This document shows, piece after piece, positions 213 through 7,352 of a stretch of 7,352 nucleotides of DNA (position 1 is the first letter of the stretch; the number at the start of each line of letters is the position of its first letter). The notes below the pieces were generated by a model that saw only the letters and a list, made by a program, of their open reading frames with translations, made no database searches and was not told the origin of the DNA. The position numbers and the translations under genes were made by a program. The DNA is from a candidate division TA06 bacterium SM23_40 (lineage in GTDB: Bacteria > LJUI01 > SM1-40): positions 1 to 7,352 of the forward strand of contig LJUI01000127.1 of the NCBI GenBank assembly GCA_001303705.1. The letters run 5' to 3'.

Positions 213-1700
213 TCAACGCCGAGCGTTCTCCGCTGCCTCCCATTCGCCCTCCTGCGGTAACACCGCAAACGAGAACCTGTCCTTATCGAAGAGGTTTGCA
301 GGCAACCCGACCTGCCACATGAAGTCCGACCATCCGAACGGCCACATCTCTGGTACTTCGTACTCCCTGACACACTGCCAGTTGTACTGCCGATGCATGA
401 TCCCATGGTCAGGCCCCTCAAGCGGATTCCCGGGCCACGGCTCACCGTTGGGCAGAGTCAGCTCGGCGATTCCCCAGCACGGCTGTGGGGCATCGTGGCA
501 GTTCACCAACGTGTACAGCACTCGCCAGCTCTCCCCCGGGTGAACAGCGAGAGTTTCCGGAGTCAAGTAGGTGACCAGAGCCTTCGACTGGTCAAAGATG
601 TATCTACCCATGTCGCGCCGCGTACCGTCAGGATCCCAGAGGTCTGGCTGACCCGCGTCGATACAGGGAGATCCCCAGAGAAGACGGTAATCCTTCCAGT
701 CCTCATGAACGAAGATAGGGTCTGCGTCGATATTCCCATCCTCCCAGTATAACGTGCAGCCGGGGTTGATAAAGGCCGCCGATGAGCCAGCTTCCACATT
801 GGAATACGCGACGGTGATGGAACTCCCTTCATAGAGGGCGATTTCCTGGCCTGTGCTCGCGCTGTCCCCCCAGAGAATGGAGTTGATCACCATCGGAGAA
901 GCCCAGTACGCGCACACTATGCTGCCGCCGACATTGGATGTGTTCCCTGTGATCGTGTTCCCGTCGATGATCGGGTCAGCGCTCCAGAAGCAAGCGATCG
1001 CACCGGCATTGGCGGTACCCGTATTCCCGGCAATTGTGTTGCCAGCGATGATCGGAGAGGATGTATTGCAGAAGATTCCGCCGCCCCTGTATCCGGCGAT
1101 ATTCGCCGTGATAGTATTGCCTCCTATGATCGGGTCATATCCCCCTCCTGTGCAGTAGATCCCTCCGCCTTCCCAGGTGATTGTCCGATTCCCAGTAATC
1201 GTGTTCCCCACGATGATGGAACTGCTCGCGCTACAATAGATCCCACCACCGGACCCGGTTGCTGTATTCCCCTCGATGCGGTTCCCCACGATCGTCGGGT
1301 ATGGTTCCACATCGAAAAAATTGATACAGATCCCTCCGCCCTTCGTTGCATATCCATTCCTGATCGTGAACCCCTGCACCACTGCATTCGCATCCTCTCC
1401 AGTGTGGAAGAGGAACCCGCGGTGGTGCTCTTGCTCGCTACCCTCACAGTCGAGGATCGTCGCCTCAGGCCCGTTCTCAGACATCACCACGATCGACGTC
1501 CCCCCGAAATCGATATCCCGATTTCCATCACCCGTGTAGGTGCCGTCCGCCACCAGGACTGTGTCCCCATCCACGGCCGCATCGATCCCCGCCTGGATTG
1601 TCGGATACTGGGAGGGGACATGGAGGATCGTCGCGCCCGCGCTCGCCACGAGCAAGCCCATGACGAGTACCACAGCCATTGCAGATCGGATTGACGTCAT
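213..1700 (-). CDS. Secreted right-handed parallel beta-helix repeat protein, 495 aa
   Basis: Predicted exported protein with a signal peptide (hydrophobic core about residues 8-22, cleavage near ASAGA). The conserved N-cap ILHVPSQYPTIQAGIDAA is followed by VDGDTVLVADGTY and a segment ending in VVQGFTIRNGY, typical of DUF1565/NosD-like beta-helix proteins. Five rungs follow, each of form IIxGNTIxxNT...GGGIYC...SP, roughly residues 130-270. Next come an ILWGDSAS cap, then NIDADPIF and GSPCIDAGQPD...DPDGTRRDMG, a segment like that found in choice-of-anchor Q proteins. The last 120 residues look Ig-like and end in a polar tail without the extra domain seen in the 945-residue paralogue. The ATG at 1700 is preceded by GGGAGGG with 8-nt spacing. 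The gene has its own promoter and a long structured leader. Binding target and activity are unknown; no lyase catalytic residues were identified. Confidence 0.9.
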   Translation of the reverse strand: MTSIRSAMAVVLVMGLLVASAGATILHVPSQYPTIQAGIDAAVDGDTVLVADGTYTGDGNRDIDFGGTSIVVMSENGPEATILDCEGSEQEHHRGFLFHTGEDANAVVQGFTIRNGYATKGGGICINFFDVEPYPTIVGNRIEGNTATGSGGGIYCSASSSIIVGNTITGNRTITWEGGGIYCTGGGYDPIIGGNTITANIAGYRGGGIFCNTSSPIIAGNTIAGNTGTANAGAIACFWSADPIIDGNTITGNTSNVGGSIVCAYWASPMVINSILWGDSASTGQEIALYEGSSITVAYSNVEAGSSAAFINPGCTLYWEDGNIDADPIFVHEDWKDYRLLWGSPCIDAGQPDLWDPDGTRRDMGRYIFDQSKALVTYLTPETLAVHPGESWRVLYTLVNCHDAPQPCWGIAELTLPNGEPWPGNPLEGPDHGIMHRQYNWQCVREYEVPEMWPFGWSDFMWQVGLPANLFDKDRFSFAVLPQEGEWEAAENARR

Positions 1701-1708
1701 TTCCTCAT

Positions 1709-1715
1709 CCCTCCC
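1709..1715 (-). promoter_or_regulatory. Shine-Dalgarno of the 495-aa beta-helix gene
   Basis: Minus strand GGGAGGG, 8 nt before ATG at 1700. It lies directly after the 14-bp palindrome and about 15 nt after the U-tract of a terminator-like hairpin, so folding of the leader could affect access to it. Confidence 0.75.
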
Positions 1716-1718
1716 GAG

Positions 1719-1732
1719 TTTGCTGCAGCAAA
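1719..1732. repeat. 14-bp perfect palindrome before the ribosome binding site
   Basis: TTTGCTGCAGCAAA is its own reverse complement. It overlaps the end of the U-tract of the upstream terminator-like hairpin and ends 3 bp before the Shine-Dalgarno. As DNA it could be an operator for a dimeric regulator. As RNA it could form a 5-bp stem with a TGCA loop. Which applies is not shown by the sequence. Confidence 0.6.
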
Positions 1733-1776
1733 AAGAAAAAGAACAGCTCCCCCGCCTCCCATGCTCGGTGCCGTTC
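1730..1776 (-). terminator. Intrinsic terminator or attenuator in the beta-helix leader
   Basis: On the minus strand GAACGGC (1776-1770) pairs with GCTGTTC (1747-1741), seven pairs including one G-U. Past an A-A mismatch, CC/GG can add two more pairs around a 15-nt loop. The stem is followed at once by TTTTTCTTTTT (1740-1730). This is the only hairpin plus T-run I found in the window. It lies about 185 nt downstream of a strong promoter and 30 nt before the ATG of the 495-aa gene. It could therefore attenuate that gene, end a small RNA, or stop read-through from the deaminase gene. Confidence 0.65.
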
Positions 1777-1815
1777 CCGAAGAGGTTGACTTATGCTAAT
1801 GCCACACAAGAGCCC

Positions 1816-1869
1816 TTCCCGACGCCACCGGGCATCTGCCGCTCCCCGGGGCAGCAGAAATGTCGGGAA
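1816..1869 (-). promoter_or_regulatory. Nested stem-loop in the leader RNA, possible three-way junction
   Basis: A perfect 8-bp outer stem pairs TTCCCGAC (1869-1862, minus strand) with GTCGGGAA (1823-1816). Inside it, TCTGCTGC (1858-1851) pairs with GCGGCAGA (1842-1835), eight pairs with one G-U, around an 8-nt loop. A small GCC-CGGT-GGC hairpin could form the third arm. The element sits upstream of a terminator-like hairpin, as an aptamer domain would. I do not recognise a known riboswitch consensus; in particular it does not look like the purine riboswitch. Pairing is read by eye and no energy was calculated. Confidence 0.45.
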
Positions 1870-1926
1870 TATACGCACTACGACGAGCCCAATCACCCCC
1901 TCTCCCACAATGAGCTCAAGCAGCGA

Positions 1927-1941
1927 GCGGCGATCTGCCGC
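1927..1941 (-). promoter_or_regulatory. Small hairpin near the 5' end of the leader
   Basis: Minus strand GCGGC-AGATC-GCCGC forms a perfect 5-bp stem with a 5-nt loop, about 20 nt after the predicted transcription start. The 9-mer GCGGCAGAT in it recurs at 1842-1834 inside the larger stem-loop, so the two copies could compete for the same partner strand. Confidence 0.4.
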
Positions 1942-1966
1942 ACCGCACGTTCCCAATCTCCCTATG

Positions 1967-1995
1967 ATTGTATCGCCGCTGCACGGCGATGTCAA
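1967..1995 (-). promoter_or_regulatory. Near-consensus sigma70-type promoter with a dyad in the spacer
   Basis: Minus strand -35 TTGACA (1995-1990), exactly 17 bp, then -10 TACAAT (1972-1967). The predicted start is about 1960, giving a leader of about 260 nt before the ATG at 1700. The spacer itself is a perfect inverted repeat (arms TCGCCG and CGGCGA, extending one base into each hexamer), placed where a bound dimer would block or reshape polymerase binding. The -35 begins 17 nt after the deaminase stop codon. Confidence 0.75.
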
Positions 1996-2011: not shown

Positions 2012-3049
2012 TCACAGTTCCGTCCAGCCAGGATCTGCGAGGAATTCCTCCATGAGCCGGAATTTCCTCTCGTCGGGCAGCCACGAGACGTCGATCGCCT
2101 GGAGGATCACTTTCCTTATGTCGTCTCGCGTGAACCCCAGATGCCGTCGGAGCAACGAGTACTCGTCCGCAAGCGACGTCCCGAAGAGCGCGGGGTCATC
2201 CGTGTTGATGCAGATGGGGATCCCCCGCTCGAAGTAGATCCTCGCGGGGTGCTCTTCGATCGAGCCGATCGCGCCGGTCCGTAGATTCGAGACAGGACAG
2301 AGCTCGAGTGGGATCGCATGCTGCGCCAGATAGTCGACCAGAGTCTCGTCTTCGCGTGCCGTGGTGGCGTGGCCGATCCGATCCGTGCGAAGTGAGCGGA
2401 TCACCCCCCACACGCTCTCAGGCCCGCAGACTTCTCCCGCGTGAGCAGTGGTTCTGAACCCGAGTTCTCGCGCCCGCTCATACACACCCTCGAATACCTC
2501 CGGCGGGACCAATTGCTCCGACCCGCCGATACCGACACCGATGACGCCGAGGTCGCGGACCTCGTTCATCTTCTCGAGGACGAGTGAGGCGGTTTCCGGG
2601 CCGAAGTCACGCACCAGATCTGCGACGAGAGCAACCTGAATGCCCGGCACTCGATCGAGACCTTCCCGTATCGCCTCAGTGAGCGCCTGGGGCTCGAGCC
2701 CGAACCTTCTGAAGTCCGCCGGCGAGAAGGACACCTCGATATATCGAATGTTCTGGGCCGCCAGGTCCTGAGCGACGGCTTCTGCCACGGACGTGAAGTC
2801 CTCGTACTCGCGAAGGAACTGGTTCTTCCACACCCAGGTATCGATGAAGTGCGGGAAGTCCGTGTACGTGAACTTCAGAGCAAGGGCCTGTCGATCCGGC
2901 GTGGACGGGTCTCCCCCGTACTTCTGGATCAGCTGCCACAGTGCAGCCAGCGGGATCGCTCCCTCTAGATGAAGGTGAAGCTCCACCTTGGGAAGCCGCT
3001 CCAACCATGCACGCTCTTGCTCTGGCGAATCGATGGGATCGAAGCTCAT
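2012..3049 (-). CDS. add: Adenosine deaminase superfamily enzyme (adenosine or aminodeoxyfutalosine deaminase)
   Basis: Zinc-dependent amidohydrolase of the adenosine deaminase family (PF00962), 345 residues, a normal length; cytosolic, no signal peptide. Known roles in this family are hydrolytic deamination of adenosine to inosine and, in some bacteria, of 6-amino-6-deoxyfutalosine in menaquinone synthesis. All landmarks are present: HLHLEG (H25, H27), HAGE (H203, catalytic E206), RIGHA (H227), LCPVSN and NTDDP (D284, D285). The GPESVWGVIR...RIGH and ALFGTSLADEY patterns fit the broad bacterial branch that includes both substrates, so the symbol is tentative. ATG at 3049 is preferred; a GTG directly before it (3052) would add one residue. 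No strong Shine-Dalgarno is visible, and a short CGGA-ACCC-TCCG hairpin lies just before the start. The gene has its own promoter, so its place between beta-helix genes need not mean shared function. Confidence 0.93.
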   Translation of the reverse strand: MSFDPIDSPEQERAWLERLPKVELHLHLEGAIPLAALWQLIQKYGGDPSTPDRQALALKFTYTDFPHFIDTWVWKNQFLREYEDFTSVAEAVAQDLAAQNIRYIEVSFSPADFRRFGLEPQALTEAIREGLDRVPGIQVALVADLVRDFGPETASLVLEKMNEVRDLGVIGVGIGGSEQLVPPEVFEGVYERARELGFRTTAHAGEVCGPESVWGVIRSLRTDRIGHATTAREDETLVDYLAQHAIPLELCPVSNLRTGAIGSIEEHPARIYFERGIPICINTDDPALFGTSLADEYSLLRRHLGFTRDDIRKVILQAIDVSWLPDERKFRLMEEFLADPGWTEL

Positions 3050-3127
3050 CACGGAGGGTTCCGATCGTCAGTTGCGCCAGTCGTGATCGAAGATTCGCAG
3101 TAACCATTCACTTCCGTCACTGTCGGC

Positions 3128-6291: not shown

Positions 6292-7352
6292 CTACGCCAT
6301 CCGTCCTCTGTCCGCGAATTCGGCATGTTGACACGTGGCCTGTCGGGCGCTCTCTTCGGCAGCCTGTCGAGCCCGCTCATCGGTCTCTTTCTGGCGTATC
6401 GTGGCTGCATGGGCGAGCACCATGCATCGGCGGCACGTGGCGATGTCGAGCTTGCGTCGCCGCAGGTGGAGCCGCCTCGCCTCCTTCAGTGCCGGACTCA
6501 TCCAGACGTCCTGGATGGAGTCTCTGTAGGCGTTGTTGGTCACTAGAGACGTACCAAGGTCGTGGGTACAGCACACGTACACCGAGCCGTCGTACCGCAC
6601 CTTGAGGAATTTCCAGATGGGGATGCATGGCGCCATCAGCGTCGGCTGATGACGAATAGCCTGGTATCCCGTCGCCTCTGCCTGCGACAGGATCGACTCC
6701 GCCTCATCCATCGGGACCCAGCTGATGAGCCCGGTGATTTTGATCCCATCGTGGTCCTCCAGATGCTCCTGCCAGTACGTGCGGAATGCTCCCACTTCAT
6801 GCTCGTTCTGGGCCGTCTGTATCATGCGCATGAGGATCCGTGGTCTGCCATTACCCCTGCTCCGCCTCAATTCGATCAGCCGGTGCATATTCTCGAGTAC
6901 CCGGTCGTATCTTGCCCCAACCCTCATCGCCTCATATGTCTCTTTTGTTGCTCCGTCGATCGTGACGGCGATCTCCTCCACCCCGAGATCGACGAGCAGC
7001 GACGCCCTCTCATGGTCGAGAAGCGTGCCGTTCGTCAAGATCCACATCGGGGCGACGCCCGCACGCTTGGCGTAGGCGACGTACTCCTCCCACCGAGGAT
7101 GTACCATCGACTCGCCCCGCCCGCCCAGAACGAGGAATACCCCCTTATGGAGGATAACTTCGTCGACTATTTTTCGGAACAGATCCTCAGCCATGAACCC
7201 GTGGTCCAGGATCTCCGACCGCTGCGGACACATGGGGCATCGCAGATTGCACTTGGTAGTCAGCTCTGCCGCAACGGAGGGAGGAAACGCAATCAGCCGC
7301 TCCCACGGGACCCACGACAGAACCCTCCCTGCACGCTCCTGCCTGAACAGAG
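6292..7352 (-). CDS. Radical SAM/SPASM domain protein, 5' end outside the window
   Basis: 352 codons are visible and the frame is open to the right edge. The cluster motif CNLRCPMC (CxxxCxxC; 7251-7228, fragment residues 34-41) binds the [4Fe-4S] cluster that cleaves S-adenosylmethionine. It lies mostly upstream of the first internal ATG (7233), so that ATG is not the true start. Further radical SAM landmarks are LGGRGE (75-80), LTNGTLL (105-111) and TIDGATKETYEAMR. The C-terminal part has a SPASM-like auxiliary cluster region: CIPIW...YDGSVYVCC (Cys 242, 260, 261) and CRRC (306, 309). The tail after that is rich in Arg, Glu, Gln and Ala and probably helical. Relatives modify peptides, sugars or other small molecules; substrate cannot be told. 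No precursor peptide gene was seen in the 191-bp gap downstream. Confidence 0.92.
   Translation of the reverse strand, partial: LFRQERAGRVLSWVPWERLIAFPPSVAAELTTKCNLRCPMCPQRSEILDHGFMAEDLFRKIVDEVILHKGVFLVLGGRGESMVHPRWEEYVAYAKRAGVAPMWILTNGTLLDHERASLLVDLGVEEIAVTIDGATKETYEAMRVGARYDRVLENMHRLIELRRSRGNGRPRILMRMIQTAQNEHEVGAFRTYWQEHLEDHDGIKITGLISWVPMDEAESILSQAEATGYQAIRHQPTLMAPCIPIWKFLKVRYDGSVYVCCTHDLGTSLVTNNAYRDSIQDVWMSPALKEARRLHLRRRKLDIATCRRCMVLAHAATIRQKETDERARQAAEESARQATCQHAEFADRGRMA

Follow-up and report, generated by a model that had tools for sequence, protein, structure and literature searches.

Organization of the leader

The window, i.e. the whole 7,352-nt stretch of DNA that was analysed, contains on its minus strand a gene for a secreted right-handed beta-helix protein, preceded by the leader whose parts are listed in Table 1. 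A sequence-only reading of this DNA had described a strong promoter, hairpins, a nested stem-loop, a U-tract and a ribosome site ahead of the gene, and all of them were found on the minus strand where it had placed them. The promoter (TTGACA-17-TACAAT, span 1995-1967) matches at 11 of 12 positions. The nested stem-loop (1816-1869) comprises a closing stem of 8 bp (TTCCCGAC/GTCGGGAA) and an inner stem of 8 pairs, and belongs, together with the terminator, to a conserved element of about 140 nt. In contrast, the hairpin at 1927-1941, which had been counted as part of the same arrangement and has a stem of 5 bp, lies outside this element. It is part of a 5' extension (1871-1960) that is present in the window copy and, with a different sequence, in one other copy (C168), and is missing in the remaining seven copies described below.

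Table 1. Features of the leader in the window
Feature	Position	Strand	Basis
-35 box TTGACA	1990..1995	-	read from sequence
-10 box TACAAT	1967..1972	-	read from sequence
5' extension of transcript, including hairpin 1927-1941	1871..1960	-	comparison of nine copies
Conserved ~140-nt structured RNA element, window copy	1731..1870	-	covariance-model match, 120 bits, E 5.8e-26
P1, 5' strand TTCCCGAC	1862..1869	-	alignment of nine copies
P1, 3' strand GTCGGGAA	1816..1823	-	alignment of nine copies
P2, 5' strand TCTGCTGC	1851..1858	-	single-sequence fold; homologous hairpin in all copies
P2, 3' strand GCGGCAGA	1835..1842	-	single-sequence fold
Near-invariant GCCCGGTGGC, weak 3-bp P3	1824..1833	-	alignment of copies
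CGGTG within GCCCGGTGGC, 5' side of proposed pseudoknot	1826-1830	-	conservation and complementarity
Variable linker	1779..1815	-	44% identity to and among divergent copies
Terminator hairpin: 5' arm GGGAACGGC..., 3' arm GGAGCTGTTCTT	1739..1778	-	fold and alignment
CACCG in terminator 5' arm, would pair with 1826-1830 in proposed pseudoknot	1766..1770	-	complementary in 9/9 copies
U-tract TTTTTCTTTTT	1730..1740	-	sequence; other copies with T-rich tail
Ribosome-binding region GGGAGGGATGAGG	1703..1715	-	read from sequence
Target gene, 495-aa secreted right-handed beta-helix protein, ATG at 1700	213..1700	-	ORF; Pfam PF13229, E 8e-11

A dyad, ATCGCCG-TGC-AGCGGCGAT, is located in the spacer that separates the two promoter boxes (1971-1990, minus strand) and is a possible operator; no such dyad was seen in C168. 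An adenosine-deaminase-family gene (2012-3052, minus strand) lies between both beta-helix genes of the window, and its stop codon is 17 nt upstream of the -35 box. Further along, a Radical SAM/SPASM protein (6292-7350, minus strand) is interrupted by the end of the contig.

Copies of the element, their promoters and their genes

A DNA search of the same genome showed that positions 1761-1870 recur on two further contigs with 73-76% identity, and a pattern built from these first copies yielded four additional ones. When this genome was searched with a covariance model, nine copies scored strongly (101.8-144 bits, all with E 1e-21 or better), namely two on C185 (C185a and C185b) and one each on C128, C160, C117, C28, C168, C89 (the window copy, 1731-1870) and C79. 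A tenth match (C2:2230-2323, 24-25 bits) was excluded, its P1 and P3 being broken, with no promoter and with the start codon far off.

A TTGACA-like box, a 17-nt spacing and a -10 box were found upstream of all nine copies. The end of the -10 box is separated from P1 by 15-19 nt in seven of them, so that the transcript is expected to begin almost at P1; the promoter is farther off in the window copy (96 nt upstream) and in C168 (88 nt). Eight copies are followed on the same strand, 29-40 nt from the end of the element, by a start codon; the exception is C79, which shows no tight spacing to an intact gene. In C79 (L003:1600-1990), the leader is separated from the head gene by near-duplicate stretches, and this gene, which contains an in-frame TAG, is probably decayed. 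We also considered that the element might be the terminator of the preceding gene. This was ruled out, since the upstream gene of C28, C128 and C168 is divergent and the promoter lies in between. C185a, C185b and C160 have sequence in common even 5' of the promoter. An inverted repeat, GAGCTGAGGCGAT...ATCGTCTCAGCTC, is found in these three directly 5' of the TTGACA box (L160:3230-3400, L160:5500-5676 and L161:6800-6974); it may act as an operator or may represent an upstream terminator that was duplicated with the module.

Secreted beta-helix proteins form a large surface-protein family specific to this lineage, with about 50 paralogous genes in the genome, many of which are arranged as tandem arrays (e.g. 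on C117, C185, C79, C42 and C80). On C117, C185, C128, C79 and C28 the element precedes the head gene of the array and is missing before the subsequent paralogs. Two targets are not beta-helix proteins: C185a precedes the gene for a 310-aa putative lipoprotein without a Pfam match, and C160 that for an FG-GAP protein (signal peptides and lipoboxes of the targets were assessed by eye). The module therefore goes with a class of products, secreted proteins, rather than with a single gene family, and is not simply carried along by gene duplication.

Outside this genome, a covariance search with our own model covered 385 further genomes from all over the domain and detected no copy. It was performed in two rounds (98, then 386 genomes including the genome under study), the second with strict filters and with eight candidates scored per genome, so that distant relatives could escape; the phylum of the window is represented by its own genome alone among the genomes searched. 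The element was likewise not found in the two-genome phylum that provides the best protein match. A pattern scan of genome contigs gave at least 116 stretches, of which 80 were screened with the covariance model together with 12 viral matches, all proving to be chance matches; in GC-rich genomes this pattern was not stringent enough. Provisionally, the element appears confined to one lineage. A search of Rfam 15 with lax thresholds, performed with seven of the nine copies including that of the window, returned only chance matches far below the gathering threshold, the models searched including c-di-GMP-I/II, T-box, crcB and epsC/EAR. The sequence-only reading had recognised no known RNA family.

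Conservation of the structure

The nine copies were aligned with plain MAFFT to test the structure. With the proposed pairing, 95.5% of the cells were paired, versus 44-57% when the partners were slid by 1-3 columns. In five pairs both partners had changed, and none of 500 shuffles reached the covariation score of the alignment; the shuffles keep the relatedness of the sequences, which are nine related paralogs of one genome. Most of the variation lies in P2 and in the terminator; in the latter, 98% of the cells are paired over the nine copies. Examples of variable pairs are U-A/U-G/C-G in columns 18-31, A-U/G-U/G-C in columns 101-132 and A-U/G-C in columns 104-129. In the alignment, the P1/P2/P3 fold is backed by both conservation and compensatory changes. 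In the window copy, the MAFFT alignment shifts the 3' strand of P2 by a few bases relative to the pairing in the single-sequence fold (TCTGCTGC/GCGGCAGA), which makes the counts for P2 conservative. A further helix, in which AGCTC in the linker would pair with GAGC in the terminator loop, was judged by eye and dropped, as it is broken in the three divergent copies.

Further evidence for selection on the structure was obtained from the comparisons that involve the divergent copies (the window, C168 and C79). The identity in these comparisons was 76-84% in the stems, and only 22% in the P2 loop, 30% in the terminator loop, 44% in the linker and 34-36% in the flanks. The stems have thus been kept while loops, linker and flanks drifted to near-random identity.

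The sequence-only reading had named the lack of a folding excess over shuffled sequence among the results that would speak against it, and no excess was observed: the whole 261-nt leader had a z-score of +0.33, with 125 of 200 shuffles folding equally well or better, and when windows of 60-160 nt were scanned on both strands of the same contig, the leader region was not among the strongest folds. The 55-nt P1-P3 domain by itself had a z-score of -2.9, and one of 300 shuffles was as good. The minimum-energy fold of the single sequence was a different structure for C168 and C28, the latter having one mismatch in P1. It is therefore on the comparison of the nine copies, and not on single-sequence folding of 261 nt, that we accept the leader as real, and the conclusion survives on this evidence. 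A z-score for the folding of a single sequence can overlook a real leader, which comparison within the genome exposes at once. As judged by sequence comparison, the leader is real, conserved and absent from Rfam 15, and represents a new family of cis-acting leader RNA with a terminator.

Terminator, proposed pseudoknot and possible mode of action

The terminator hairpin of the window, which spans 1730-1778 together with its U-tract, had a calculated stability of -14.9 kcal/mol for the span considered in the sequence-only reading and of -16.0 kcal/mol with its full context. Over the nine copies the values ranged from -14.9 to -18.0 kcal/mol, with a T-rich tail in all of them, the weakest being that of C79. 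Transcription is predicted to stop at this hairpin and its U-tract.

Two invariant stretches are unexplained by secondary structure: CGGTG (columns 44-48) and CACCG (columns 105-109), the latter located in the 5' arm of the terminator. They are complementary in 9/9 copies, one A to G change keeping a G-U pair; they vary too little for covariation to bear on the pairing, and complementarity between two conserved segments of such length could arise by chance at a level of a few per cent. When the five bases of CACCG were blocked, the terminators dropped to between -5.5 and -12.1 kcal/mol, a cost of 6-12 kcal/mol (-7.7 kcal/mol remaining in the case of the window). We infer that the pairing of CGGTG with CACCG forms a pseudoknot that would act as an antiterminator.

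The reading that we favor, with moderate confidence, is that of a cis-acting, transcription-attenuating 5' leader of a new family, riboswitch-like and with a pseudoknot antiterminator. Transcripts would start at a sigma-70-type promoter, and their first conserved part would fold as P1/P2/P3. About 140 nt along, RNA polymerase would meet the intrinsic terminator, 29-40 nt ahead of the start codon. Pairing of CGGTG, beside P3, with CACCG would hold the 5' arm and weaken the terminator, and a signal (a small molecule, an ion or a protein) that stabilizes the P1-P3/pseudoknot fold would turn on the operon, with its secreted beta-helix, FG-GAP or lipoprotein genes. The leader would in this way probably work as an on/off switch for secreted-protein genes. 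That switching occurs and depends on a signal would fit this arrangement of motifs, and the ON direction is at most hinted at by it. The layout that the sequence-only reading had likened to that of riboswitches and attenuators (folded domain, terminator, gene) recurs in the nine copies. If this reading is true, an undescribed cis-regulatory RNA family marks a surface-protein regulon in an uncultured bacterium that stands alone in its phylum among the genomes searched; a regulatory RNA module would front unrelated secreted-protein genes, and its nine natural variants offer a ready set for study.

The main rival explanation, which we find rather unlikely, is processive antitermination, in which the folded RNA would modify RNA polymerase either alone, as in HK022 put or EAR, or with a NusG paralog, as in the LoaP/RfaH type, the adjacent terminator being merely the first one to be ignored on long operons. 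RNA-only (put) and LoaP-type systems do exist (PMC9378689, PMC12691694), and the present elements head long tandem arrays of paralogs, of up to about nine genes in the case of C117. They also share with EAR (the epsC motif), put and LoaP/RfaH the presence, early in a surface or secretion operon, of a structured RNA that helps, or here would help, polymerase past terminators. However, no match to any Rfam family, including the epsC/EAR motif, was obtained with the seven copies searched, and the terminator lies within the conserved element, the overlap of the conserved CACCG with it fitting local attenuation better. Furthermore, the genome, which is about 90% complete, yielded a single gene of the NusG family, with no sign of a paralog, which argues against the LoaP/RfaH type though not against RNA-only antitermination.

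Each copy has its own promoter and its own terminator, and a terminated leader would accumulate as a short RNA anyway, as expected if the elements were independent small RNAs of about 150 nt acting in trans, their position before genes being incidental or historical. The sequence-only reading had also allowed for an independent RNA, of about 230 nt. This seems to us quite improbable, as the spacing of 29-40 nt between terminator and start codon is kept in 8/9 copies, before genes that are not homologous, and as nine copies of the same sequence would be redundant for an action in trans. The similarity of C128, C28 and C185b (80-83% across 215-235 nt), and that of C185a, C185b and C160 even 5' of the promoter, would suit a recently duplicated promoter-leader module devoid of switching, such as a constitutive 5' UTR or an insulator copied with the genes. 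The divergent copies speak against such a module, which we regard as improbable, since their stems and invariant motifs are preserved, whereas their loops and flanks are no more alike than expected by chance. Fixed spacing and selected stems thus make both the trans-acting small RNA and the passive module less likely. As to a leader peptide, whose translation from a short ORF would control the terminator, open frames do occur in some copies (e.g. 57 codons in the window copy), but frames, lengths and start codons vary over the nine copies and the indels are not multiples of three. With no frame conserved across the nine copies, this highly improbable mechanism was rejected.

The cis-acting attenuator that we favor recalls other known systems. 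In the crcB (fluoride) and pfl motifs, the conserved part overlaps the terminator, and the same logic has been applied there (PMC2864571): since conserved nucleotides overlap the terminator stem, as they do here, stabilization of the fold should inhibit termination. The present element nevertheless differs from these motifs by its sequence, structure and genes, and by its lack of a match in Rfam. The nearest functional analogy is with c-di-GMP riboswitches, which control surface proteins via terminators, e.g. in Clostridioides difficile (PMC6366702). Classes I and II share with our element the occurrence of several copies per genome, a terminator in the leader and surface proteins or adhesins as targets (PMC6366702), while the Rfam models of both fail to match it and its stem arrangement and motifs are different.

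A more specific reading, which we put forward tentatively, as it is rather less probable than the general one, is that of a new riboswitch class of one deep lineage, in which the loop near P3 would form a pseudoknot with the 5' arm of the terminator and a small molecule would co-ordinate the regulon of secreted beta-helix, FG-GAP and lipoprotein genes. The ligand of such a class might, for instance, be a nucleotide second messenger. No sequence feature singles out c-di-GMP, which is an available candidate signal in view of the nine GGDEF-domain matches found in this genome.
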